Below are positions 3,986 to 16,115 of a DNA stretch of 20,734 nucleotides, piece after piece; within the stretch, counting starts at the first letter, position 1; every line of letters starts with the position of its first letter. The stretch comes from a virus: positions 1-20,734 of the IMG/VR virus record IMGVR_UViG_3300001460_000271, one strand, 5' to 3'. Made by a program: the position numbers and the translations under genes. The notes below the pieces were generated by a model that made no database searches, had not been told where the DNA came from, and saw only the letters and a program-made list of their open reading frames with translations.

Positions 3986-5035
3986 ATGGCAAGTACATAC
4001 TCAGATAGATTAAAATTAGAACTAATGGCTACAGGGGCAAATGCCAACACCTGGGGCAACAATACTAATAATAATTTACAGACAATTGATTCTTTTGGTG
4101 GTGGTTATCTTTCTAAATCTGTAGCAGGTTCAGCAAATATAACCTTGTCTACAAATAACGCAGATCCTGCAGCAGAAGCGTCAAATAAAGTTATTGAATT
4201 CACAGGTGCTTTAACAGGAGATATAATAGTTTTTATACCCGCTGTAGAAAATAATTATATTTTCTTCAACAACACCACTGGCTCTCAAACTTTAAGCATA
4301 GCTCCAACAGGGCATACAGCCAATGCAGTAGCTATCACACAAGGTGCACATACGATTATGTATAATAATGCTAGTAATAAGATAGTAGATTTATTTGCAA
4401 ACTCACTTGGAACTGTGAGTGTTAAAGGTGCAGCCAATGTTGCTGCAACTGTACAGGTTAAAGCTAATGGTCAACTTTCAGCTACCTCTTTTACAGGAGA
4501 TGGTTCAGGATTATCTGGTGTAACCACACTAGATGCCGGAACACAAATGGTTTTTTTAGGAGCTTCAGCACCAACTGGTTGGACTCAAAATACAGCGGCG
4601 GCTTTAAATAACGCAACCTTAAGAGTTATTACATCAGGCACCGCAGGAACAGGTGGAGCAGATACTTTTCAAGATGTTTTTGCTGCAAAAAATACATCTG
4701 GAGCTGCTGCAGCAGGTATATCACCTCTAAGTGTAAGTGGCGGAAGCATCGGAAATGCAACTTTATCTACACCTCAATTACCTTCCCACTTGCACTCAGG
4801 TCTTAAAGGTACTTTTACAGGTTCTAACTTTCAAGGTGGACCCGCAGGTGCACAAGGATTGACATTAACCAATGGATCAACAAGTGGTGCAACAGGAGGT
4901 GGTGGTTCTCACACTCACCCTTTATCAGGAAGTGCCTCTGTATCTGGAAACATATCAGCACCTTCAGTAGCTTTAGCCGTACCTAATATGGACATAAAGC
5001 ATTCAAATGTTATAGTATGTAGTAAGGACGCATAA
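3986..5035 (+). CDS. Tail fibre protein 1 of 3 (HxH-tip fibre)
   Basis: A 349-residue tail-fibre protein, first of three adjacent paralogues of nearly equal length. The N-terminal module (about 1-140: SDRLKLELMATGANANTWGN, then IPAVENNYIFFNNTTGS, then GAHTIMYNN, then IVDLFANSLG) is shared and probably attaches the fibre to the particle or forms the shaft base. A linker (about 160-182) with TSFTGDGSGLSGV is typical of phage fibres and adhesins. The C-terminal tip starts near GWTQNTAA and has a Gly-rich GTGGADTF. Two HxH motifs, HLH (268-270) and HTH (309-311), recall iron-binding HxH motifs in the T4 gp37 tip. The sequence between them is unique to this copy. The end is VPNMDIKHSNVIVCSKDA. Confidence 0.8.
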   Translation: MASTYSDRLKLELMATGANANTWGNNTNNNLQTIDSFGGGYLSKSVAGSANITLSTNNADPAAEASNKVIEFTGALTGDIIVFIPAVENNYIFFNNTTGSQTLSIAPTGHTANAVAITQGAHTIMYNNASNKIVDLFANSLGTVSVKGAANVAATVQVKANGQLSATSFTGDGSGLSGVTTLDAGTQMVFLGASAPTGWTQNTAAALNNATLRVITSGTAGTGGADTFQDVFAAKNTSGAAAAGISPLSVSGGSIGNATLSTPQLPSHLHSGLKGTFTGSNFQGGPAGAQGLTLTNGSTSGATGGGGSHTHPLSGSASVSGNISAPSVALAVPNMDIKHSNVIVCSKDA

Positions 5036-6090
5036 TGAGTAGTTCATATACAGATAGTTTAAAATTAGAAAAACAAGCAACAGGAGCAAATGCTAATACC
5101 TGGGGTAATAATACTAATAATAATTTAGAAGTTGTAGATGCTTTTAATTCAGGTTATCTATCAAAATCTGTAGCGGGTTCAGCGGATGTTACATTGACAA
5201 CTGCTAATGCAGATCCTGCAGCTGAATCTTCCAACAAAGTTATTGAGTTTACTGGAACATTGACTGGAAATATAAAAGTTTTCGTTCCCGCTGTTGAAAA
5301 TAATTATATATTTTTTAATAATACTGCAGGTTCTTTTAGCTTAACAGTTGCACCTACCGGCCATGCTGCAAATGGAGTTGCAATTGCACAGGGAGCGCAC
5401 ACTATTCAGTATTGCAAAGGTAATAGAATTGTTGATTTGTTTGCAAGTTCTTTTGGTAACATATCCGCAAAGACTCAAATTAAAATTGGTGATAATGTAA
5501 AACTTAATGCAAATGGTGTGGTACAGGCTACAACACTTTTAGGTAATGGTGCAGGTCTTTCTGGTGTAGAAGAATTTGCTGCAGGAACTAAACCGTTATT
5601 TGTGCAAACAGCATCTCCCACAGGATTTACAACAGATACAACAGCAACCTTATCAGAGTGTTGTTTACAAGTGGTAAACGGAACAGGTGGAGGTACAGGT
5701 GGATCTGATGCATTTTCTAGTACCTTTACAGGCTCAAAGAGTGCAACAGTAACAGATGCTCCTATTGATATTTCTAGTTTATCAGTAAGTAGTAACTATG
5801 CTATTGGTGCACATACACTTTCAACTCCTGAAATGGCAGGCCATACTCACACAATTATGCAATCAGCTCCCTCAAGTAGACTCCAGACAGGTAATGAACC
5901 GGTGCCAAGAAAAACTGCAGGTGCTCCCTCTAACGTTCCTGCTGATACTGGAAATACAGGAGGTGGAGGAAGTCATACTCACCCTCTCGGATCTTTTTCT
6001 TTATCAGGCACTTTAACATCACCTTTAAGTGCTTCTGTTCCTAATATGAATTTAAAATTTGCAGATAGCATAATTTCGGTGAAGGATTAA
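5035..6090 (+). CDS. Tail fibre protein 2 of 3 (HxH-tip fibre)
   Basis: A 351-residue paralogue of its neighbours. The shared N-terminal part includes ATGANANTWGNNTNNNLEVV and FVPAVENNYIFFNNTAGS, followed by the linker GNGAGLSGV and the Gly-rich GGGTGGSDAF. HxH motifs lie at 270-272 (GHTHTIM) and 314-316 (SHTHPLG). The segment between them (about 275-308) is longer and richer in Pro/Arg than in the other copies (SRLQTGNEPVPRKTAGAPSN), as expected for a receptor-contact loop. This copy has ASPTGFTTDTTA where the others read GWTQNTAA, adjacent cysteines at 209-210, and lacks the Cys of the VIxCSKD ending (it has IISVKD). Its ATG shares one base with the upstream TAA, so the fibre genes are translationally coupled. 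Confidence 0.8.
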   Translation: MSSSYTDSLKLEKQATGANANTWGNNTNNNLEVVDAFNSGYLSKSVAGSADVTLTTANADPAAESSNKVIEFTGTLTGNIKVFVPAVENNYIFFNNTAGSFSLTVAPTGHAANGVAIAQGAHTIQYCKGNRIVDLFASSFGNISAKTQIKIGDNVKLNANGVVQATTLLGNGAGLSGVEEFAAGTKPLFVQTASPTGFTTDTTATLSECCLQVVNGTGGGTGGSDAFSSTFTGSKSATVTDAPIDISSLSVSSNYAIGAHTLSTPEMAGHTHTIMQSAPSSRLQTGNEPVPRKTAGAPSNVPADTGNTGGGGSHTHPLGSFSLSGTLTSPLSASVPNMNLKFADSIISVKD

Positions 6091-6092
6091 TT

Positions 6093-7136
6093 ATGAGTAG
6101 CTCATTTTCAGATCGTTATAAATTAGAGTTAATGTCCACAGGTGCTAATGCAAACACCTGGGGTAATAATACAAACACAAACTTAGATGTTATTGATAAA
6201 TTTACAGCGGGATATATTTCAAAGTCTGTTGCAGGCTCTGCTGACGTTACACTTACAACTGCTAATGCAGATCCTTCAACTGAATCAGCTAATAAAGTTA
6301 TAGAACTAACAGGAGCTTTGACTGGTGATATAAAAGTATTCATACCCGCAGTAGAAAATTATTATTACATTTTTAACAATACAACAGGTTCTCATACCTT
6401 AAACATATCTGTAACAGGCCATGCCGCAAACGTTGTGCCAGTGGTTCAAGGTTCACACACAATTATATATTGTAAAGATGGTGATGATGTAGTTGATTTA
6501 TTTGCAAACTCATTAGGAACTCTAAGTATTAAAAACTCTATGACCGTTAATGGAGCTGTATTTACTGCCTCTAATGGTGGTATAACTGCAACAACCTATT
6601 CTGGTAATGGATCAACTTTATCAGGGGTTTCTAGTATTCCATCAGGAACCACAGCAATGTTTTTTCAAGGATCAGCACCTAGTGGATGGACACAAAACAC
6701 AGCTGCATCTATTAACACATCAACAATGAGAGTTGTGACTGGTTCTGGCGGGGGCACAGGAGGCTCTGACGCTTTTGGAACAGTCTTTACAGGTTCAAAA
6801 AATACTGCATCTGGTGCAATCAATTTTACTGATGTATCTGGAGCTTCAGCACCTGCAAACTTTTCAGCAGGGGCAACAACTGTATCAACACCACAAATAG
6901 CTTCTCATACTCACAGTTGGACTCAAGGTACTTTTAGTCCTTTAAGAAACCAAGGTGGTAATACACAACAGGTTCCTCCTGGGCAAGCTTCTCAATCAAC
7001 AGGTGGTGGCGGTAGTCACGTTCATTCTTTTTCAGGAAGTCTTGCACTTGGAGGTAGTGGAACAACCACAACAGCTTTATCTGTACCCGCTATGAATATA
7101 AAATTTGCAAATGTTATTGCGTGTTCTAAAGATTAA
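6093..7136 (+). CDS. Tail fibre protein 3 of 3 (HxH-tip fibre)
   Basis: A 347-residue third paralogue, starting two bases after the previous stop. The N-terminal module is conserved (STGANANTWGNNTNTNLDVI, FIPAVENYYYIFNNTTGS). The linker is GNGSTLSGV, and the tip has SGWTQNTAA and GGGTGGSDAF. HxH motifs lie at 272-274 (SHTHSWTQ) and 309-311 (SHVHSFSG). The segment between them (SPLRNQGGNTQQVPPGQASQ) again differs from the other copies. The end VPAMNIKFANVIACSKD matches fibre 1. Known fibre tips with repeated HxH motifs bind metal along a trimer axis; here that is inference. Three similar proteins could form separate fibres with different receptors or a mixed fibre. Confidence 0.8.
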   Translation: MSSSFSDRYKLELMSTGANANTWGNNTNTNLDVIDKFTAGYISKSVAGSADVTLTTANADPSTESANKVIELTGALTGDIKVFIPAVENYYYIFNNTTGSHTLNISVTGHAANVVPVVQGSHTIIYCKDGDDVVDLFANSLGTLSIKNSMTVNGAVFTASNGGITATTYSGNGSTLSGVSSIPSGTTAMFFQGSAPSGWTQNTAASINTSTMRVVTGSGGGTGGSDAFGTVFTGSKNTASGAINFTDVSGASAPANFSAGATTVSTPQIASHTHSWTQGTFSPLRNQGGNTQQVPPGQASQSTGGGGSHVHSFSGSLALGGSGTTTTALSVPAMNIKFANVIACSKD

Positions 7137-7155: not shown

Positions 7156-7617
7156 ATGCCAATATTCGATCCAGACGGTAAGTGTCCGTTAATAAATAAA
7201 AAATGCATGAAACATCGATGTATTTGGTATAACATGCTTCAAGGTAAACACCCCCAATCAGGAGCAAATGTTCAAGAATGGGGATGTTCAATAGCTTGGA
7301 TCCCTTTGCTTTTGGTTGAAAATACAGGTAAGCAAGTGCAAACAAATTCAGCTGTTGAGTCATTTAGAAATGAGATGGTGAAAGCCAACATGGTAACATT
7401 AGCTCTTGTAAATGAACAAAATAAAAAAGAAAAAGTAGACCCAACTAAACAAGTAGGTAGTATTTGGGGCAATATTAGTGAGAGTCAAGATGCTTTAGAA
7501 AAAGGTGAAGATCCAACAGAAGATATTGCATTGCTTCTAAATAAAAAACCTGTTATAAAGAAAGGAACTAAAGGGAAAAAAAATGGCCGTAACAATAAAC
7601 AACGTAACAATAAATAA
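7156..7617 (+). CDS. Four-cysteine phage protein of unknown function
   Basis: A 153-residue protein whose N-terminal third holds four Cys: C10, C17, C22 and C44 (KCPLINKKCMKHRCIWYNMLQG, read in parts, and EWGCSIAWIP). The segment AWIPLLLVENTGKQ then AVESFRNEMVKAN is typical of a family seen in marine phages near tail genes. The C-terminal part is charged and disordered, ending in a Lys/Asn/Arg-rich tail (KKNGRNNKQRNNK). The Cys spacing could hold zinc or an iron-sulphur cluster; the sequence does not decide between them. Its last 35 bases overlap the start of the next gene in another frame, and the basic tail lies wholly in that overlap. Function is unknown. Confidence 0.7.
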   Translation: MPIFDPDGKCPLINKKCMKHRCIWYNMLQGKHPQSGANVQEWGCSIAWIPLLLVENTGKQVQTNSAVESFRNEMVKANMVTLALVNEQNKKEKVDPTKQVGSIWGNISESQDALEKGEDPTEDIALLLNKKPVIKKGTKGKKNGRNNKQRNNK

Positions 7618-8053
7618 CCAACTTACTATTATTAATGATGCAGGTGTAAATGCATCAAATGCAAATAATGGACCTAAGTCATACTCTGGAGACACAGAGG
7701 CTGATGTAAATATAGATGGCACAAGTTATTTAAATTTAACAGGAAGCGATATTATTCCTTCCAATGTTCACGCCTTACAGTTTAAACCTGCATTGGATTC
7801 TGGTGAAATAGAATTCGATGGTACAGCACAAAATCAAGCTATTACAGAATCAAGCATACCTGATTGGGCAAAGACAATGATTAAAAGATGGAATGGTGAG
7901 AAAACCTATTGGGACACTTATAATACATCTTATAACAACGCTGTTGATGCCTTAGATTCAGAATCAGCATCTTATGGAGATGATGTAGCTGCCGCTCAAA
8001 CAGCGGCCGTATCACAAGCCACCACTGCAAAAAATAACATTATAAGTGCTTAA
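7583..8053 (+). CDS. Fibre-associated protein with Ala-rich helical C-terminus
   Basis: A 156-residue protein. The N-terminal beta-prone part repeats VTINN (MAVTINNVTINNQLTI). The middle contains IPSNVHALQFKPALDSGEIEFDG followed by ITESSIPDWA (residues 58-96); this pattern recalls small phage proteins encoded beside tail fibres that match IHAVQWN...GEIEY...PDWA. The C-terminal third (97-155) is helical and Ala/Ser/Gln-rich and could form a coiled coil. The gene overlaps the previous one by 35 bases, with AAAGGG near the start as a weak ribosome site. A fibre assembly or fibre-base role is inferred from position and pattern. Confidence 0.65.
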   Translation: MAVTINNVTINNQLTIINDAGVNASNANNGPKSYSGDTEADVNIDGTSYLNLTGSDIIPSNVHALQFKPALDSGEIEFDGTAQNQAITESSIPDWAKTMIKRWNGEKTYWDTYNTSYNNAVDALDSESASYGDDVAAAQTAAVSQATTAKNNIISA

Positions 8054-8630
8054 TCTTAAAGATAAAGTTCTTGATCATACTCTTTTAATTAAAGAGTTTA
8101 TGAATCCTCCTTTAGTAAAATTAATTGATAATGTTTTTTATTCTGAAAAAGCAAAAGACTTATGGGCTAAAGGAGCAACTGCTAACGGTGAAGATAACTC
8201 ATTAAGATCGGTTGAAAATTGTGGTCTTGAAGAAGAACAAATTGGAAATTCTGTATCAAAAAGAATTATTTACAACGATATTAAGAGGTTTACTTCAAAA
8301 TTAGAAAATCTTTACAAAGAAAAGGTTTCAGATTGGTACTTCTCAAATTCTTCTTATTTTGAATTTTTATATTATAAAAAAAAGAATGGTGGACATTATG
8401 TTTATCATACTGATTATTATAAGGACGCTCCAAGAAATTTAACTATTTTAGTAGGATTAAATTCATCAAAAGAATATGAGGGGGGAGAATTATTTATACA
8501 TAATCAAGAACAAGGAATTAAATTAGACTACGGTGATGTGGTCGCTTTTCCATCTAATTTTATGTTTCCTCACAAAGTTGAACCTCTCAGAGAGGGTGAA
8601 AGAAAGGTACTTGTGATATGGACCCAGTAA
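8046..8630 (+). CDS. 2-oxoglutarate/Fe(II)-dependent oxygenase 1 (HxD type)
   Basis: A 194-residue protein with a double-stranded beta-helix oxygenase core. The facial triad is visible as H121-x-D123 (VYHTDYY) and H176 (FMFPHKVEPL), with R186 ten residues later (EGERKVLVIW) as the likely 2-oxoglutarate-binding Arg. EYEGGELFI (143-151) and YGDVVAFPS (162-170) are the usual strands between the motifs. Such enzymes hydroxylate or otherwise oxidise a substrate using O2 and 2-oxoglutarate; the substrate is unknown here. The GTG start at 8046 overlaps the upstream stop; the next Met (residue 19, at 8100) is an alternative that keeps the whole core. It heads a run of modification genes downstream of the fibres. 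Confidence 0.85.
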   Translation: MLNLKDKVLDHTLLIKEFMNPPLVKLIDNVFYSEKAKDLWAKGATANGEDNSLRSVENCGLEEEQIGNSVSKRIIYNDIKRFTSKLENLYKEKVSDWYFSNSSYFEFLYYKKKNGGHYVYHTDYYKDAPRNLTILVGLNSSKEYEGGELFIHNQEQGIKLDYGDVVAFPSNFMFPHKVEPLREGERKVLVIWTQ

Positions 8631-9247
8631 ATTTATTTAAAGAAAATAATTATGTTCATCTTGAAGGTCTTGTAAGTCCTGAAATGTCTTCCTTTATATA
8701 CAATTATTTGATTTTAAAATCTTGTACAAACAGAGATTTTTCTGAAGGAAATGAACAAGATCAAAACTTTATTAGACAATGCTATATTGATCTTAATATG
8801 GAAACATTATCAACATTTCTTCTTGATAAAATTAGTAAGGTTACTCAAAAAAAACTTTGCCCTACTTATACTTTCTCTAGAGTATATACACATGGTGAGC
8901 TTTTAAGACCTCATAGAGATAGACCCTCTTGTGAGTATTCTATAACATTGAATTTTGGAGGAGATCCATGGCCTATATATTTTGGTGAAATTAATACAGA
9001 AAATAATAATAAAATGAACGCTGACGCGATGGGCTTAAACTTTAATGGCCATAGTCTTAAAAGCGAGATAGTGATGAAACCAGGTGATGGTATTATTTAT
9101 ATGGGCGAGAAGCTTGTTCATTGGAGAAATAAATTTGAAGGAGATCATTGTGCGCAAGCTTTTATTCATTACATTGATGTAGATGGTCCTCATCATCCAG
9201 AATGGGCTTATGATAAAAGAAAGAATGTAGGTTATTTACAAACATGA
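8618..9247 (+). CDS. 2-oxoglutarate/Fe(II)-dependent oxygenase 2 (HxD type)
   Basis: A 209-residue oxygenase. The metal triad is H99-x-D101 (LLRPHRDRPSC) and H168 (EKLVHWRNKFEG). The intervening strands read YSITLNFGGDPWPIYFGE (107-124) and MKPGDGIIYMGE (153-164). The C-terminal stretch QAFIHYIDVDGPHHPEWAYD closes the barrel. R170, directly after the metal His, is the obvious basic residue near the usual 2-oxoglutarate site, unlike the Arg ten residues later in the previous enzyme, so the two are distinct subfamilies rather than a recent duplication. The gene overlaps the previous one by 13 bases. AGAAAGG ten bases upstream of the ATG is a possible ribosome site. The substrate is unknown. Confidence 0.85.
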   Translation: MDPVNLFKENNYVHLEGLVSPEMSSFIYNYLILKSCTNRDFSEGNEQDQNFIRQCYIDLNMETLSTFLLDKISKVTQKKLCPTYTFSRVYTHGELLRPHRDRPSCEYSITLNFGGDPWPIYFGEINTENNNKMNADAMGLNFNGHSLKSEIVMKPGDGIIYMGEKLVHWRNKFEGDHCAQAFIHYIDVDGPHHPEWAYDKRKNVGYLQT

Positions 9248-10059
9248 TAAAACCAGAAGAAATAAAAGACAAAAATTTTAAAGTTTTTTTAGGCATGCCT
9301 ATGTATGGAGGTATGTTAACAGAAAGCACTCTTCATGGATTATTGGAGCTACAGTCATGGAGTTTAAAAAATAATGTTAATTTACGAATACAGACTATAG
9401 GTAATGAAAGTTTAATAACGAGGGCAAGAAATACAATAGTATCAATGATGTTGGATGCTACAGATTTTGTAGCAACACATTTATTATTTATTGATGCTGA
9501 TATAGGTTTTACTTTTCAAAATATAGAAAGACTTCTTTGTGCTGAAAAGGATGTGACTTGTGGTATTTATCCTAGAAAACATATTTATTTAGAAAAAATT
9601 AAAAAAATATTAGAAGAAAATCCTAATGCCGATAATGAGGAGATAGAAGCCAAAGCATTAGGCTACAATGTAAACTTTGACAATCCTGAACATTTACAAG
9701 GTAATGGTGGGTTTTTTCCTGTTCAAGAAGCAGCCACAGGAATGATGCTTGTAAAAAGAGAAGTTTTTAGAACTATGATGAAAAAGTTTCCTGAAAGAAA
9801 ATATGATTCCGATCAAATTGTAAACGGTGAAAACTATAGTTCTGATAATTGTTATGATTTATTTGCAGTGGGTCCTTATGAAACAAAAACTACAAAAGGC
9901 AAAACGCAAGTTAGGTATTTATCTGAAGACTATTATTTTTCTCGTCTTTGGCAAGAATGTGGTGGTGAGATTTGGGCAGATTTAGCGATGCCTCTAACTC
10001 ACTTTGGCAATAGAGCATTTAAGGGTCATGTTGGATCTTTAGTTGCATCTAAAAAATAA
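9244..10059 (+). CDS. GT-A-like glycosyltransferase
   Basis: A 271-residue protein with glycosyltransferase-type motifs: an N-terminal strand FKVFLGMPMYGG (12-23), a nucleotide-sugar region ESLITRARNTIVSMML (55-70), the metal-binding DxD motif in LLFIDADIGFTF (80-91), ATGMMLVKREVF (164-175), and the late motif YLSEDYYFSRLWQECGG (225-241) followed by LTHFGNRAF. SEDYYF is the kind of acidic motif that supplies the catalytic base or acceptor contact in GT-A enzymes. The sugar and acceptor cannot be read. The ATGA overlap couples it to the oxygenase upstream, so the products may act on a common target such as a virion protein or surface glycan. It has no membrane anchor. Confidence 0.75.
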   Translation: MIKPEEIKDKNFKVFLGMPMYGGMLTESTLHGLLELQSWSLKNNVNLRIQTIGNESLITRARNTIVSMMLDATDFVATHLLFIDADIGFTFQNIERLLCAEKDVTCGIYPRKHIYLEKIKKILEENPNADNEEIEAKALGYNVNFDNPEHLQGNGGFFPVQEAATGMMLVKREVFRTMMKKFPERKYDSDQIVNGENYSSDNCYDLFAVGPYETKTTKGKTQVRYLSEDYYFSRLWQECGGEIWADLAMPLTHFGNRAFKGHVGSLVASKK

Positions 10060-10061
10060 TC

Positions 10062-10619
10062 TTGAATATTCATTTAATACAGTCCTCTTCTAATTCGATT
10101 GCTAGTATATATATTCTAAAAGATTTTCTTTATAGTAAAGAATACCTAGAATCCTTAACCAAACTAGTCTATGAAGAGACTTTGAAATCTGCTAAAGAGA
10201 ATTTAGTAAATGTACAAGCTACCTGCACAGATTGGGGTAGACTATTAGAAATAGAAGAAATGAAAAGCTTTCATGTAAGAATACTTCATACTCTAAATAA
10301 TATTTACAAATTAAGAGCTACAGCACCTGACGCTCCTGTAGAATTTACAATGACTTCATCCTGGGGAATGGTACATAAAAAAGGAGACTATTCTAATGAA
10401 CATACACATATTCCTGTAGCTTGGTCTGGTGCTTTTTATTTTGATGTTCCTAGTAAAACAACAATGACTTTTCCTGATTTTGGAAAATCTTTAGAACTTG
10501 AAAGCAATATGCTTGTTCTTTTTCCAGGAACAACAAAACATGGTGTTTCAGAATACTTAGGTGATAAAGAAAGAATTTCAATGGCCTTTAATATCATCTG
10601 GGATGAAAAAAATGATTAA
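10062..10619 (+). CDS. 2-oxoglutarate/Fe(II) oxygenase 3 (HxH variant, TIGR02466-like)
   Basis: A 185-residue protein matching the putative 2OG-Fe(II) oxygenase group with the pattern HxH..(W/S)SG..Y: SNEHTHIPVAWSGAFYFDVP spans 111-130, with H114 and H116. LVLFPGTTKHGVSEY supplies the distal H160, and R171 in KERISMAFNI is the likely 2-oxoglutarate-binding Arg. The family's usual length is about 200 residues, so it looks complete. The start is TTG two bases after the upstream stop; the next Met is near residue 67, which would remove about a third of the protein. Fold and motif order are clear; activity and substrate are not. The gene at 12995 is of the same subgroup. Confidence 0.75.
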   Translation: MNIHLIQSSSNSIASIYILKDFLYSKEYLESLTKLVYEETLKSAKENLVNVQATCTDWGRLLEIEEMKSFHVRILHTLNNIYKLRATAPDAPVEFTMTSSWGMVHKKGDYSNEHTHIPVAWSGAFYFDVPSKTTMTFPDFGKSLELESNMLVLFPGTTKHGVSEYLGDKERISMAFNIIWDEKND

Positions 10620-11133
10620 AATTTTTGATAATTTTATTAACGATCCAAAGTTAATAACTGGTTTTTTTGATAAATATATTATGGAAGGACACTTGCAACT
10701 TTCTTTTTCGAATCTAGGTGGTGAAAAGGAAACAATTCCTCACTCCTTTACTTCGTCACTAGATGAAAGAAATTTTATTGTACCTTTGATTTATGACATT
10801 TATAAAAAATGTAATCAACTTCTAGAACCTAATATGGAGATCTATAGGTGGCACGCTAATATTTATCCCTCTGGATTTGATGGATCTATTCATACTGATT
10901 CGAAACAAAACACTCCCACTTTCTTATATTGTATCTCTCCGTGGAAAGCTGAATGGGGAGGAGAGTTTATTGTTTATGATGAAAACAAAGAAGCAAAAGA
11001 AGTTGCCTCTTTTAAACAAGACAGATTAATAGTTTTTGATGGAAAATACCCACATAGAGCAACTGCTCCCACTAGGGTTAGTTCTTTGCTTCGTACTACT
11101 GTTGCATTTCAAACAGTAATACTAGAAAAATAA
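10612..11133 (+). CDS. 2-oxoglutarate/Fe(II) oxygenase 4 (prolyl 4-hydroxylase-like)
   Basis: A 173-residue oxygenase from the ATG at 10612. Motifs are H94-x-D96 in GFDGSIHTDSKQ, WGGEFIVYDENKEA (115-128), H148 in GKYPHRATAP and R161 in SSLLRTTVAF. The layout is that of prolyl-4-hydroxylase-like phage enzymes. The open frame extends to 10561, but the start at 10612 is preferred because it gives a typical N-terminus (MIKIFDNFINDPK) and an eight-base overlap with the upstream stop. ATG at 10603 is a second choice. The enzyme lies directly before the nozzle gene. Substrate is unknown; protein prolines or asparagines, nucleic acid or small molecules are all possible. Confidence 0.8.
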   Translation: MIKIFDNFINDPKLITGFFDKYIMEGHLQLSFSNLGGEKETIPHSFTSSLDERNFIVPLIYDIYKKCNQLLEPNMEIYRWHANIYPSGFDGSIHTDSKQNTPTFLYCISPWKAEWGGEFIVYDENKEAKEVASFKQDRLIVFDGKYPHRATAPTRVSSLLRTTVAFQTVILEK

Positions 11134-11157
11134 TATTTATAGGGTATATTAACTCTC

Positions 11158-12987
11158 ATGCCATTAGTAAATTTTAGACCCGCACCCGGTATTAATAAAG
11201 AAGTAACTGACTATACAGGAGAAAATAAATGGACAGACGGGGATAATGTACGTTTTTTTCAAGGTTCTCCACAAAAAATTAAAGGTTGGGAGAAATTTAT
11301 AAGCACTACTTTAGTGGGTGTGGCACGTGATCAACATGCTTGGATATCATTATCTGGCACTAGATATAATGCTGTTGGCACTGATCGTAAGCTATATGTT
11401 ATAGAAGAAGGTTTAGCTTATGATATTACTCCTATACGTAAAACTACCTCCTCTTTAGCTAATCCTTTTACTACAAATGCTACTACATCAGTCTTGGTTA
11501 CGGACAGTGGACATGGTTGCGACACAGGTAGTTTTGTTACTTTTGATTCTTTTAGTACCATTAATGGTTTAGACATGAATAAAGAATTTGAAGTTACTTC
11601 TGTTGTAAATAGTTCAAATTATGTTGTAACTCACACTGCCACAGCTTCAGGTTCTACTTCAAACGGTGGTGGCACAGGAAATGCTAAGTATCAAACTAAT
11701 CCAGGACCTGAGTTTTCTGTTCCTGCTTTTGGATGGAGTACAGGTGAATGGAACACTGGGGCGTGGGGCACTCCGAGGTCTACATCCAATGTGACTTTGG
11801 AAGCTAGACAATGGTCCCTAGATAATTTTGGTGAAGATTTAATTGCTACTGCTTTAAATGGTGGCACATTTAAATGGGACACATCAGCAGGTGTTACAAC
11901 AAGAGCAGTTGCTGTTACCAACGCACCAACAGCTTCAAGATTAAGCTTAGTTTCAACACCTGACAGACACTTAATTGTATTAGGAACAGAAAATACAATT
12001 GGAACAACTAATTCACAGGATGATTTATTAATTAGATTTTCTGATCAAGAAGATATTACAACATATCAACCCACAGCAGAAAATACTGCGGGTACATTAA
12101 GAATTGCTGACGGATCACGGATCGTGGCTGCAGAAAGATCAAGGGGACAATTGCTTATTTGGACAGATACCTCACTACACTCTATGCAGTTTATTGGTCC
12201 ACCTTTTACTTTCGGTTTAAGACAGCTTGGTCAAAACTGTGGTATTATAGGTCAACATGCAGGCATAGATATTAATGGTGTTTCTTATTGGATGTCTCAG
12301 GATTCTTTCTTCTTATTCGATGGAACAGTGAAAAAATTACCCTGTTCTGTGGAGCAATACATATTTAATAATATAAATCAAACTGGTTCAGAAAATGCTT
12401 TTGCATCACATAATGGTGAGTTTAATGAAATACTTTGGTTTTATAATAGATCTGGGTCAGATCAAATTAATGCAGTAGTTGCTTATAATTATTTGGAGCA
12501 AACATGGTGGATAGGATCGCTAGACAGAACAACATGGATTGATAGAGAGATCTATGATAATCCAGTAGCCTCGGACTACCTACCAACCACAATTGCTAAT
12601 AATGAGGTAATATTAGGGTTGACAGATGGAGCCACACAAATGTTTTTACATGAACAAGGTAATGATGCGGATGGGGAAGCAATAACTGCTTTCGTCAAAT
12701 CAGGTTCGGTTGAAATAGGTGAAGGTAATGATTTGTTATTTGTTTCAAAACTTATCCCTGATGTACAGGATCAAAGTGGTACTTTAAATGCAAAGCTTGA
12801 ATTTAAAAACTATCCTAATAATAGCATAAGCGTTACAAAAACTGCTACTTTTACTGATGCTACAGAGTTTGTTAGTTTAAGAGGTAGGGGTAGAGAATTT
12901 ACAGTAAACGTAGTTTCAAACACTACAGGCACGGCTTGGAGGCTAGGCACACAACGTTTTGATGTTCAACCAGATGGTAGAAGATAA
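11158..12987 (+). CDS. Tail nozzle / stabilisation protein (P22 gp10-like)
   Basis: A 609-residue protein with the hallmark N-terminus of podovirus nozzle or tail-hub proteins (PLVNFRPAPGINKEVTDYTG, then KWTDGDNVRFFQGSPQKIKGWEKF), followed by a long all-beta body. Propeller-like stretches recur (ISLSGTRYNAVGTDRKLYVI, LLIRFSDQEDITTYQP, QLLIWTDTSLHSMQFIG, VSYWMSQDSFFLFDG, VVAYNYLEQTWWIGS). The C-terminal beta domain (about 510-609) ends in TAWRLGTQRFDVQPDGRR. Such proteins form the last ring of the short tail through which DNA exits. A Trp motif GWSTGEWNTGAWG (192-204) inside an insertion echoes the Trp motifs of the protein at 2955. It is flanked on both sides by oxygenase genes. Confidence 0.75.
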   Translation: MPLVNFRPAPGINKEVTDYTGENKWTDGDNVRFFQGSPQKIKGWEKFISTTLVGVARDQHAWISLSGTRYNAVGTDRKLYVIEEGLAYDITPIRKTTSSLANPFTTNATTSVLVTDSGHGCDTGSFVTFDSFSTINGLDMNKEFEVTSVVNSSNYVVTHTATASGSTSNGGGTGNAKYQTNPGPEFSVPAFGWSTGEWNTGAWGTPRSTSNVTLEARQWSLDNFGEDLIATALNGGTFKWDTSAGVTTRAVAVTNAPTASRLSLVSTPDRHLIVLGTENTIGTTNSQDDLLIRFSDQEDITTYQPTAENTAGTLRIADGSRIVAAERSRGQLLIWTDTSLHSMQFIGPPFTFGLRQLGQNCGIIGQHAGIDINGVSYWMSQDSFFLFDGTVKKLPCSVEQYIFNNINQTGSENAFASHNGEFNEILWFYNRSGSDQINAVVAYNYLEQTWWIGSLDRTTWIDREIYDNPVASDYLPTTIANNEVILGLTDGATQMFLHEQGNDADGEAITAFVKSGSVEIGEGNDLLFVSKLIPDVQDQSGTLNAKLEFKNYPNNSISVTKTATFTDATEFVSLRGRGREFTVNVVSNTTGTAWRLGTQRFDVQPDGRR

Positions 12988-12994
12988 AATTTAA

Positions 12995-13540
12995 TTGTTT
13001 AAAAATATTTCTGAAACTAAAGTTTATTATTCTAAGTTGGATTTAGATATTTGTAAATCAGCGAAACTTAATATTGATAATAAACAAAATGAATTTCAAC
13101 AAAAAACTTGGGATTGTGATATAAAAACCTCGTTAAATTACACACAAAACATATTAAATTGTGTAGAACTTCATCAATTAAAACTAAATATATTAAGTCA
13201 TATCGAGATGTATATGTATCAAAACAATAAATTTATTGATGGATATATTTATGAATCTTGGGTTAATATATATGAAAAGGATTTTTTCCAAGAGTTTCAT
13301 GTGCATACACATGATTGTTATAAATCTATATCAGGTATTGTATACTTGACAGAAAACAACTCTGACATTGTTTTTAATATTGATAATCCATATAACTTTG
13401 TTCCAAAATTTGCTGACATACTATTATTTCCTGATGATATACCACACAGAGTTAGAAAAAATGACACTGACAGTTTAAGAGTTTCTTTAGCTTTTAACTA
13501 TAAACTTTGTAATCCATCAATAATTACTTCACTAAGTTAA
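12995..13540 (+). CDS. 2-oxoglutarate/Fe(II) oxygenase 5 (HxH variant)
   Basis: A 181-residue protein of the same subgroup as the gene at 10062. Residues 98-118 read FQEFHVHTHDCYKSISGIVY, with H102, H104 and H106. FPDDIPHRVRKN gives H151, and SLRVSLAFNY gives R162. The N-terminal half is diverged and Asn/Lys/Cys-rich (C20, C41, C56). Alignment by eye to the other copy pairs H104/H106 with its H114/H116, so the usual D of HxD is again H. The TTG start lies seven bases after the nozzle stop; the next in-frame Met is near residue 72, so a shorter start would delete the N-terminal domain. It is more AT-rich and less similar to standard members than the other four oxygenases. Substrate is unknown. 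Confidence 0.65.
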   Translation: MFKNISETKVYYSKLDLDICKSAKLNIDNKQNEFQQKTWDCDIKTSLNYTQNILNCVELHQLKLNILSHIEMYMYQNNKFIDGYIYESWVNIYEKDFFQEFHVHTHDCYKSISGIVYLTENNSDIVFNIDNPYNFVPKFADILLFPDDIPHRVRKNDTDSLRVSLAFNYKLCNPSIITSLS

Positions 13541-14191: not shown

Positions 14192-14890
14192 TTGAAAATA
14201 ATTTTTAAATCACCTTTAAAAGGTTATATATCTGATCCAAAACCCTCTGTTACTCACATACCCAATGGATATAAAGATTTACCTCTTTTTCAACAAACCG
14301 AGACAAAGCCTACTGTAAAAAGGTGCATACCTTTTCTTGATGCCTTAACATCAGGTTACATTATTCCACATCCTGTTGACATTGAAATGTTTTACAATCA
14401 AGAAACAGAGAATATTTTATTTAGTGCACCTCAAGAGTTTAATCATTTTTCGGATCTTATAGGTATTAAAGAACATCTTAAATTTCAAATAACACCCGAA
14501 CTAATGCACCCCAGAAGAACAATAGATGCAGTTTTTAAATTTATGAATCCTTGGACAGTCGTAACTCCTCCAGGTTATAGTTGTATTTTTATGACACCCG
14601 CCAACCATGTCTTACCTTACGATTTGATTACTGGTGTGGTTGACACTGATACATATCCTGCAAGAATCAATTTTCCTTTTTATTGGACAAAAAGCGTAGA
14701 TCAAAGAACAGTTATAAAAGAGGGTAGTCCTATGGTAATGATAATTCCTTTCAAAAGAGAGTCATGGAAAATGCAAACAGAAGAATGCAAAGAGACTGAG
14801 AAAGAAAGTAATAAAAATCACTTGAGTAGGTTCAAGTTTATAGCTGATAACTACAAACGCTTATTTTGGAGAAAAAAATCATATAAATAG
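14192..14890 (+). CDS. DUF6065-like protein
   Basis: A 232-residue protein with the sequence landmarks I associate with DUF6065: CIPFLDALTSGYIIPHPVD (45-63), FMNPWTVVTPPGYSCIFMTP (117-136), GVVDTDTYPARINFPFYW (148-165) and IKEGSPMVMIIPFKRESW (175-192). It looks like a compact beta-sandwich or cupin-like fold with a charged C-terminal tail (ECKETEKESNKNH and a Lys/Arg-rich end). The family occurs in bacteria and phages and has no established reaction known to me. The TTG start is needed because the next Met (residue 67) would cut off the first conserved block. It lies among modification-type genes, so a catalytic or ligand-binding role is possible. Confidence 0.65.
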   Translation: MKIIFKSPLKGYISDPKPSVTHIPNGYKDLPLFQQTETKPTVKRCIPFLDALTSGYIIPHPVDIEMFYNQETENILFSAPQEFNHFSDLIGIKEHLKFQITPELMHPRRTIDAVFKFMNPWTVVTPPGYSCIFMTPANHVLPYDLITGVVDTDTYPARINFPFYWTKSVDQRTVIKEGSPMVMIIPFKRESWKMQTEECKETEKESNKNHLSRFKFIADNYKRLFWRKKSYK

Positions 14891-15205: not shown

Positions 15206-15805
15206 ATGTCGGTTAAATGGTTTGAGATACCTGGATATTTCAATTATATGGAAACATACGAAATGATTGCTTACAAACTACCCGAAGGTAGTAAATTTAT
15301 TGAGTTAGGTTGTTTACTTGGAAAAAGTACAAATTTTCTTGCATCACGGCTCAAGGAACATAATAAAAAGTTTGAATTTCATGTAGTAGATACATTTGAA
15401 GGTACAGCAGGAGAGCATGATCATTTAAAAGATTTTCATGATCAATTTATTGAAAACTGTAAAGATTTAATTGATGAAGGATGGATTACAAAAGTACATA
15501 AGATGACCACTAATGAGGCGGTCAAACTATTTGATGATAAATATTTTGATGCTTTGATGATAGATGCTGATCACAAATATGAACCTGTTATGGAAGATGT
15601 AATGAATTGGCTACCTAAGATAAAAGACAATGGCACAATGTTTGGTGATGATTATTACATGGAATCTGTTTCAGAAGGATGTAAAAAAGGATTGACAGAC
15701 TATTACAAAAAAGGTGTACATTTAGCAGTAATGCATGGGAAAGAATCTACTTGGTATCATGATAAATCAGATGATCCTGATAAATGGCTTAAGAAGATAC
15801 CTTAG
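15206..15805 (+). CDS. Class I SAM-dependent methyltransferase (Methyltransf_24-like)
   Basis: A 199-residue Rossmann-type methyltransferase. Motif I is IELGCLLGKST (32-42), binding S-adenosylmethionine, and the acidic post-I residue is D62 in VVDTFEG. The strand-4 motif YFDALMIDADHKYEPVMED (113-131) followed by GTMFGDDYY (143-151) matches the IDxDHxYE...DDY signature of the Methyltransf_24 group, which includes enzymes acting on sugars, phenols and small molecules and is often found near glycan-modifying genes. There is no DNA-recognition domain and no NPPY/DPPY or PC motif, so it is unlikely to be a DNA base methylase. It ends 17 bases inside the convergent minus-strand gene. With the glycosyltransferase at 9244 it could decorate a glycan, but that is inference. 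Confidence 0.8.
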   Translation: MSVKWFEIPGYFNYMETYEMIAYKLPEGSKFIELGCLLGKSTNFLASRLKEHNKKFEFHVVDTFEGTAGEHDHLKDFHDQFIENCKDLIDEGWITKVHKMTTNEAVKLFDDKYFDALMIDADHKYEPVMEDVMNWLPKIKDNGTMFGDDYYMESVSEGCKKGLTDYYKKGVHLAVMHGKESTWYHDKSDDPDKWLKKIP

Positions 15806-16115
15806 ATTTTTTTTTACCTTTCCTAATAATCTCTTTAGATAATTGCCAAGAATTAGGTATTACAGTAATCCTGCCTGCAAATTCTTGTGTTTCGTCTGCA
15901 ATTAATACTATTTTTTCTTTATCAGAGTAAAGCTCAAAACCCACACTAGTGCATTTAGCAAGTTGTCCCCTTGTAAAAATTTCTTTCCAATCAAACCATC
16001 CAGACCCTAATGCATCGTAAGCGTCAACCCATTTTATTATAACTAAATCTAATTCTTCTACAGTAATTTTTGTTGGTATACGCATTGACATATTGCATAT
16101 TACAACTTTTTTCAC
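15789..16115 (-). CDS. Lone minus-strand conserved phage protein
   Basis: The only minus-strand gene in the window, 108 residues from a GTG at 16115, or 100 and 98 residues from ATGs at 16091 and 16085. The core ITVEELDLVIIKWVDAYDALGSGWFDWKEI, then LAKCTSVGFEL, IVLIADETQE and RITVIPNSW, is a conserved-looking small beta protein; small phage proteins with VKWVDA..GSGW..W.EI..A.CTSVG are familiar to me. The tail is Lys-rich. The ordered hydrophobic pattern and Trp content support a real gene rather than a shadow, and no + gene competes with it except the 17-base overlap with the methyltransferase end. It faces the gene at 16150 across 34 bases. In T-even or marine phages such proteins have no firm function. 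Confidence 0.7.
   Translation of the reverse strand: MKKVVICNMSMRIPTKITVEELDLVIIKWVDAYDALGSGWFDWKEIFTRGQLAKCTSVGFELYSDKEKIVLIADETQEFAGRITVIPNSWQLSKEIIRKGKKKSKVSS

Follow-up and report, generated by a model that had tools for sequence, protein, structure and literature searches.

Why a marine virus should carry five divergent 2-oxoglutarate (2OG)/Fe(II)-type oxygenase genes and a glycosyltransferase gene among its tail genes is the question raised by the stretch of DNA analysed here (the window: 20,734 nucleotides, positions 1 to 20,734 of IMG/VR virus record IMGVR_UViG_3300001460_000271). Few unexplained genes are as common in marine phages as oxygenases of this class, which tend to be assigned to auxiliary metabolism, DNA repair or "ferrochelatase". 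A preliminary description of the window had listed the six enzyme genes and proposed a stepwise pathway acting late, perhaps hydroxylation followed by glycosylation of fibre or nozzle residues. All six open reading frames proved to be present, with Pfam recognizing four of the oxygenases and a predicted fold the fifth (OX2); a megablast search with the entire window as query matched no phage record.

Layout of the locus and enzyme families

The genes on which the argument draws are the following.

3986-5035, + strand: FIB1, collar-type tail fibre, first of three paralogues that are 53-55% identical
5035-6090, + strand: FIB2, tail fibre paralogue
6093-7136, + strand: FIB3, tail fibre; residues ~1-110 follow the backbone and ~120-240 the OX1/OX2 cassette
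7156-7617, + strand: 7156, Cys-rich fibre-associated protein, fibre-tip cassette member; C10, C17, C22 and C44 invariant
7583-8053, + strand: 7583, tail-assembly-chaperone-like protein; profile match over 64 columns (probability 95.8, E 7e-9) to a phage protein group, part of it with Phage_tail_APC
8046-8630, + strand: OX1, predicted P4H/PKHD-type 2OG-Fe(II) oxygenase, GTG start, fibre-tip cassette
8618-9247, + strand: OX2, predicted 2OG-type oxygenase fold, homologues annotated ferrochelatase, fibre-tip cassette
9244-10059, + strand: GT, glycosyltransferase with a modelled GT-A fold and invariant DxD, inherited with the nozzle backbone
10062-10619, + strand: OX3, putative PF13759-type oxygenase, HxH...H...R, TTG start, single-gene cassette missing in the close relative L007
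10612-11133, + strand: OX4, PF13640-type oxygenase, single-gene cassette
11158-12987, + strand: NOZ, nozzle/stabilisation protein (phrog_3287), backbone anchor between slots
12995-13540, + strand: OX5, putative PF13759-type oxygenase, HxH...H...R, TTG start, single-gene cassette downstream of the nozzle
14192-14890, + strand: DUF6065 protein, TTG start, cassette present in several slots of relatives
15206-15805, + strand: Methyltransf_24 methyltransferase, cassette in a downstream slot

Stop/start overlaps of 8, 13, 4 and 8 bp, plus one 2-bp gap, couple the genes from 7583 through position 11133, and OX1 to OX4 lie between fibre and nozzle genes, both as first described. OX5 departs from that description on each count, being separate from the coupled run and parted from OX4 by the nozzle gene, so the five oxygenases do not form one unbroken run.

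Profile searches took OX1 (PF13640 at 1e-14; phrog_61 at 1e-26), OX3 (PF13759 at 6e-13), OX4 (PF13640 at 1e-7; phrog_274 at 7e-22) and OX5 (PF13759 at 1e-9) past the Pfam cut-offs for 2OG-Fe(II) families. An H-x-D/H...H...R core had been attributed to all five proteins, and these four possess it. The canonical HxD...H...R occurs in OX1 (H121-x-D123/H176/R186, invariant across 49 sequences) and OX4 (H94-x-D96/H148/R161, conserved in 13 homologues); OX3 (H114-x-H116/H160/R171, conserved in 19 homologues), OX5 (H102-x-H104/H151/R162, conserved in 30 homologues) and nearly all PF13759-like proteins of these loci have HxH in place of the canonical H-x-D/E. The Arg of each of the four sits at the usual place, ~10-13 residues past the distal His, and metal-ligand residues are retained in nearly every oxygenase family of the loci examined. 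The nearest solved relatives of one PF13759-like protein, 3bvc and 2rg4, are both uncharacterised; we treat OX3, OX5 and the HxH group as putative oxygenases, whose activity should not be presumed.

The description of the five as non-redundant was borne out, the window proteins being almost unrelated to one another (sole weak pair OX3/OX5, E 0.004). Comparison of the OX1 profile with solved structures gave PKHD and prolyl/lysyl hydroxylases as nearest relatives (3dkq 1e-12, PiuC 2e-11, P4H 2e-7), such that OX1 groups with peptidyl hydroxylases as a predicted PKHD/P4H-type enzyme. The families closest to it act on prolyl or lysyl residues. For OX2, GT and OX4, PDB searches by protein or profile sequence returned nothing useful.

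The ferrochelatase label of OX2

OX2 matched no Pfam family at E <= 0.1, and its match to phrog_2954 (5e-42) carries the label "ferrochelatase", as do homologous genes of HTVC008M, HTVC023P and cyanomyoviruses. An AlphaFold model built on a 54-sequence alignment (pLDDT 88.7) matched 2OG-oxygenase folds at Z 15-17, among them SnoN (Z 16.8, 3.0 A across 169 residues), PHD2 with HIF peptide (Z 16.1, 2.9 A across 164 residues) and the Pseudomonas putida P4H (4j25; Z 15.9, 2.7 A across 156 residues). The ligands H99-x-D101/H168 are conserved in the 54 homologues; the Arg/Lys usually found past the distal His is absent, and R88, R102 and R170 are invariant instead, so the core first ascribed to OX2 lacks its last element. 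We predict from the model that OX2 has a 2OG-type oxygenase fold. As a ferrochelatase it was rejected, with no Pfam profile match to one and no ferrochelatase among the 50 fold matches listed, and the HTVC008M and HTVC023P homologues likewise matched no Pfam family at E <= 1, ferrochelatase included.

Because the fold matches of OX2 are 2OG oxygenases, the label on its homologues is very probably wrong. Ferrochelatases in these phages are said always to adjoin 2OG oxygenases (PMC9599517), a statement that would then describe neighbouring oxygenases; the reassignment would correct a misannotation beneath the published "oxygenase-ferrochelatase partnership".

Two oxygenases are inherited with the fibre tip

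Loci of relatives were drawn from IMG/VR by means of OX2 and NOZ, genes were mapped on 110 of them, and co-inheritance was measured as the Spearman correlation of distance matrices. This revealed two groups. The 7156, 7583, OX1 and OX2 proteins and fibre residues ~120-240 co-inherit at 0.79-0.85 with OX1, values that stem mostly from two deep cassette types, and correlate with the nozzle at only 0.02-0.34 (OX2 versus NOZ 0.02, n=69). The backbone group (1806, 2494, 2955, GT, NOZ and 13832) holds together at about 0.3-0.7. The linkage switches inside the fibre gene, at about residue 100-140 in a sliding window: residues 1-110 of FIB3 correlate with NOZ at 0.51, yet also with OX1 at 0.56, and the remainder follows OX1 at 0.81 and NOZ at 0.02. 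Within type I the linkage persists, with 0.51 for OX1-OX2, 0.51 for OX1 and the fibre C-terminus and 0.29 for OX1-NOZ; within type II only OX1-OX2 persists (0.47), OX1 and the fibre C-terminus standing at r = -0.01 (n=18).

When cassette types were set separately from four genes, all 57 loci of 57 gave concordant types; mapped onto the NOZ tree, the types require at least 12 changes (shuffled mean 34). The order FIB - 7156 - 7583 - OX1 - OX2 is found in nearly all clade loci. A direct mosaic is seen between loci L059 and L106, which are 89% identical as far as the first 0.7 kb of the fibre gene, then diverge, and return to 90% identity from the GT start. As the loci are metagenome contigs, single ones may be chimaeras. 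Taken together, these comparisons show exchange of the fibre C-terminus, 7156, 7583, OX1 and OX2 as one block; the co-inheritance of such neighbours could by itself reflect a single recombining tract. The whole block from OX1 to OX5, as first delimited, is kept together only in part, with fibre tip, 7156, 7583, OX1 and OX2 conserved as a unit and OX3 to OX5 variable.

Similar associations occur outside the clade. In myo-, podo- and autographiviruses the 7156 homologues adjoin tail fibres, and in P-SSM2 and CRP-361 a Phage_tail_APC chaperone domain is encoded by the gene in the 7583 position. Among 15 outside-clade fibre-7156 loci with downstream sequence, OX2 follows in six, in three of them fused to OX1, and is absent from the genes listed after 7156 in the other nine. 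The OX2-OX1 fusion proteins of cyanophages, from ACG-2014f (362 aa), S-SCSM1 (453 aa) and S-SCSM2R (427 aa), argue that OX1 and OX2 work jointly; in the latter two phages the fused gene comes immediately behind a 7156 homologue and a homologue of the gene in the 7583 position.

The glycosyltransferase falls in the other group. Its D84-x-D86 is invariant in 48 sequences, and a model of moderate confidence (pLDDT 78) has a GT-A fold matching GT-A enzymes at Z 12-14, with top matches tied across several GT families: STIV A197 and human LH3 at 14.3 each and Mnn9 at 13.3. The LH3 match covers residues 283-540, which we take to be an accessory GT-like domain; COLGALT1 is also among the matches, and the two are suggestive of collagen-type chemistry without fixing the specificity of GT. 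Although a neighbour or near neighbour of OX2, GT correlates with it at 0.09 (n=80) and with the nozzle at 0.53, and finds no support as a member of the oxygenase cassette. Given this inheritance with the nozzle backbone, one linked pathway of hydroxylation and then glycosylation, as originally proposed, is unproven.

Single enzyme genes turn over in slots

Across relatives the scaffold reads fibre(s) - 7156 - 7583 - OX1 - OX2 - slot A - GT - slot B - NOZ - slot C - 13832 - slot D; of the 110 loci, 103 have GT, 90 have OX2 and 80 have OX1. The 49 loci that span the region have a median of five oxygenases (range 0-10; L002 and L006, published phages with more divergent genes, are under-counted) and 45 distinct repertoires, such that five is ordinary for the lineage and which five is not. 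The slots contain more than 20 oxygenase subfamilies plus cupins, JmjC_2 and DUF6065 proteins, along with carbamoyltransferase, sulfotransferase, methyltransferase and glycosyltransferase-like genes and one Fe-superoxide dismutase.

Losses and gains respect gene boundaries. Between the window and L007 (91-93% identical DNA) the alignments stop exactly at 10056 and 10606, positions contiguous in L007, and OX3 is a clean one-gene indel of ~550 bp; L009 lacks OX3+OX4 as one block and OX5 as another, with breaks at gene boundaries. OX4 and OX5 are gained and lost separately among relatives, and distance correlations couple OX3-OX5 only weakly to other genes. A conserved five-gene pathway was rejected because OX3-OX5 come and go one by one, and the stepwise scheme first suggested is borne out only in part: across 45 gene sets in 49 loci, OX3, OX4 and OX5 are scattered and independently gained, the outcome named beforehand as refuting it, while OX1 and OX2 stay linked to the fibre tip. 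The tail-module placement itself is real and recurrent, since in ten relatives (35-59 kb) Pfam detected 32 2OG genes, of which 31 lie within ~8 kb of nozzle or fibre-tip genes.

What the enzymes may act on

We read the locus, with a probability of roughly 0.48, as a two-layer tail-fibre recombination hotspot in which the exchangeable tip of the fibre, or proteins that assemble with it, are the most likely hydroxylation targets of OX1 and, probably, of OX2. In the first layer, the fibre C-terminus, 7156, 7583, OX1 and OX2 are swapped between a conserved fibre N-terminus upstream and the GT/nozzle region downstream, and OX1, probably with OX2, would hydroxylate residues of the tip or of assembly partners during virion assembly. 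In the second, the slots beside GT and nozzle gain and lose single-gene enzyme cassettes, mostly 2OG-type oxygenases and otherwise carbamoyl-, sulfo-, methyl- and glycosyltransferases, probably acting on the same virion surface or on a host envelope glycan. GT is constant backbone and, more tentatively, would probably decorate a constant part of the virion. Counting against this reading are the dependence of the correlations on two deep cassette types, the nine outside-clade loci with no OX2 listed after 7156, the position of OX2 homologues beside replication genes in P-SSM7 and S-E7, the missing Arg/Lys of OX2 and the HxH of OX3 and OX5.

The exchange of OX1 and OX2 with the host-binding fibre tip suggests that they chemically finish that tip. 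Since relatives of OX1 hydroxylate prolyl or lysyl residues and OX1 travels with the tip and a chaperone-like gene, hydroxylation of the tip or a partner, analogous to the P-SSM2 arrangement described below, would be the simplest reading. A pair travelling with a receptor-binding fibre tip offers a specific, testable candidate substrate, and confirmation would imply that post-translational hydroxylation of tail proteins is widespread in the ocean. A wider proposal is more doubtful, namely combinatorial virion finishing in which fibre tips and their dedicated hydroxylases OX1/OX2 are exchanged and pooled hydroxylases and transferases are added; if true, lineages would display differently decorated receptor-binding proteins, a chemical variation of host recognition beyond that of sequence.

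Tailoring of a host surface polysaccharide or secondary metabolite, instead of protein, by the oxygenases and the glycosyl-, carbamoyl-, sulfo- and methyltransferases is in our judgement unlikely. A similar cyanophage enzyme set has been interpreted in this way (PMC7824862), carbamoyltransferase, sulfotransferase and glycosyltransferase-like genes occupy the slots, and the fused OX2-OX1 gene of S-SCSM2R stands at the head of a glycosyltransferase gene run. It fits poorly with the grouping of OX1 with peptidyl hydroxylases and with OX1/OX2 following fibre-tip and tail-chaperone genes, and no genes for activated-sugar synthesis were seen in the window.

DNA modification, in which the oxygenases would oxidise bases or strip methyl groups in phage or host DNA, appears improbable. 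DNA repair has been proposed for phage 2OG genes in work that includes a marine phage with nine copies (PMC9146016). OX2 homologues are flanked by adenine methylase and clamp loader in P-SSM7 and S-E7 and lie near helicase genes in S-RIM32 and S-MbCM25; from the P-SSM7/S-E7 setting, the OX2 family may have several substrates, or DNA as substrate. A DNA_methylase (PF00145) gene also occurs in 3 of the 10 relatives. Against this, no window oxygenase matched Tet_JBP (PF12851) at E <= 0.1, nor was there a Tet_JBP match in the ten relatives, though control genomes gave none either, and nearly all Pfam-detected oxygenase genes sit in the tail region.

Late hydroxylation of host translation factors, ribosomal or envelope proteins is very improbable: the P. 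putida P4H found among the OX2 fold matches hydroxylates EF-Tu and one slot gene of relatives matches JmjC_2, a ribosomal-oxygenase family, but the co-exchange with the fibre tip and the turnover of the other oxygenases would be left unexplained. We give as little credence to the oxygenases being passengers that pile up at a fibre-side recombination hotspot without acting on the tail, as the high turnover (distinct repertoires, single-gene indels) and weak coupling of OX3-OX5 would allow, since the slots are filled almost entirely by metal-dependent oxygenases and group transferases, not random cargo, and nearly all families retain their active-site residues.

Comparison with known systems

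Calling the locus an undescribed system, as the preliminary description did, was too strong. HTVC023P-type pelagiphages are reported to have eight non-orthologous 2OG genes, often close together and colocated with "ferrochelatase" (PMC9599517), and tandem arrays are annotated in HTVC008M and S-SCSM1. In HTVC023P, HTVC027P and 023Pt_psg01 several 2OG oxygenases lie between tail fibres and the nozzle homologue, as in the window, with the "ferrochelatase" in that interval in HTVC023P and 023Pt_psg01; the tail gene order is similar, although the HTVC023P-type nozzle is only 38-42% identical to that of the window. That study treats the oxygenases as auxiliary metabolic genes, draws no fibre link and reads "ferrochelatase" as a separate iron-insertion partner, a reading that the predicted 2OG fold of the window's homologue indicates to be wrong there. 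Pelagibacter phage HTVC008M has five tandem oxygenases, one annotated ferrochelatase, beside tail genes, and in Synechococcus phage S-SCSM1 seven 2OG-annotated genes, spread over 9 kb, surround two short tail fibres and a homologue of 7156; both are myoviruses with other gene content, and OX2 and OX1, fused in S-SCSM1, are separate in the window.

The cyanophage cluster of carbamoyltransferase, halogenase, 2OG, cupin and methyltransferase genes (PMC7824862) shares the enzyme spectrum of our slots save for halogenase, none of which was identified there; its proposed role is synthesis of a secondary metabolite or decoration of capsule, and it was not described as part of an exchangeable fibre-tip cassette. 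EGLN3-like phage proteins are treated in PMC12774648. In the literature searched, no paper on a tail-modifying prolyl hydroxylase of phages came to light, searches for TET with carbamoyltransferase in phages found nothing relevant, and the marine-phage 2OG literature compared yielded no proposal of 2OG oxygenases as part of an exchangeable fibre tip.

Mimivirus L230 and human LH3 pair a 2OG hydroxylase with a GT-A domain, as in the window, where the two are separate genes, collagen repeats are lacking and GT is not co-inherited with the oxygenases. Among the entries reached by the OX1 profile is 6ax6 (E 1.6e-4), the procollagen lysyl hydroxylase/glycosyltransferase of mimivirus. In P-SSM2, PSSM2_028-031 encode a collar fibre, a 7156 homologue, a tail-assembly-chaperone protein and a PKHD-type oxygenase in the order seen in the window; that fibre is collagen-like, with Gly-X-Y repeats as an obvious prolyl-hydroxylase substrate, unlike FIB1-FIB3, which have none; a collagen-like substrate was rejected for the window on that ground. 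Multi-oxygenase arrays have thus already been reported in pelagiphages, and the linkage to the fibre tip and the ferrochelatase correction appear to be new.

Exchangeable genes around the tail region

Among the related viruses, the gene for a DUF6065 protein (14192-14890 in the window) varies in slot, that is, in its position beside the glycosyltransferase and nozzle genes, from one relative to the next, and its mobility thus equals that of the oxygenases; the protein itself holds many invariant residues. Within 15206-16115, the Methyltransf_24 gene has a convergent minus-strand ORF of ~100 aa after it. This pair recurs in six related loci (L042, L049, L050, L077, L079, and L104), and the two genes apparently form a two-gene cassette. 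One oxygenase slot (L078:3821-4489) is occupied by an iron/manganese superoxide dismutase gene.

Fibre genes and their associated protein

Three fibre paralogues, 53-55% identical, lie in tandem at 3986-7136. Relatives carry one to three copies, with three mostly coinciding with type I of the two fibre-tip cassette types. The product of the adjacent 7156-7617 gene, a type of gene that adjoins tail fibres in several phage families, is small and has invariant cysteines at four positions (C10, C17, C22, and C44); it may be a component of the tail that binds a metal or a cluster.

Oxygenase family names and fusions

The PHROG labels "ferrochelatase" (phrog_2954 and phrog_3531) and "DNA endonuclease V" (phrog_274) are misleading as functional names for families that have 2OG-type members in these phages. 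One half of phrog_3531 matches the oxygenase OX2 (8618-9247) and a different half matches OX1 (8046-8630), consistent with the two-domain fusion of these enzymes. In S-SCSM2R (L110, 11580-18333), the genes after the fused OX2-OX1 gene encode several glycosyltransferases, including one with a GT25 annotation, together with a radical-SAM maturase, an amidinotransferase, and a further 2OG oxygenase; the whole run may be a larger tailoring cluster.
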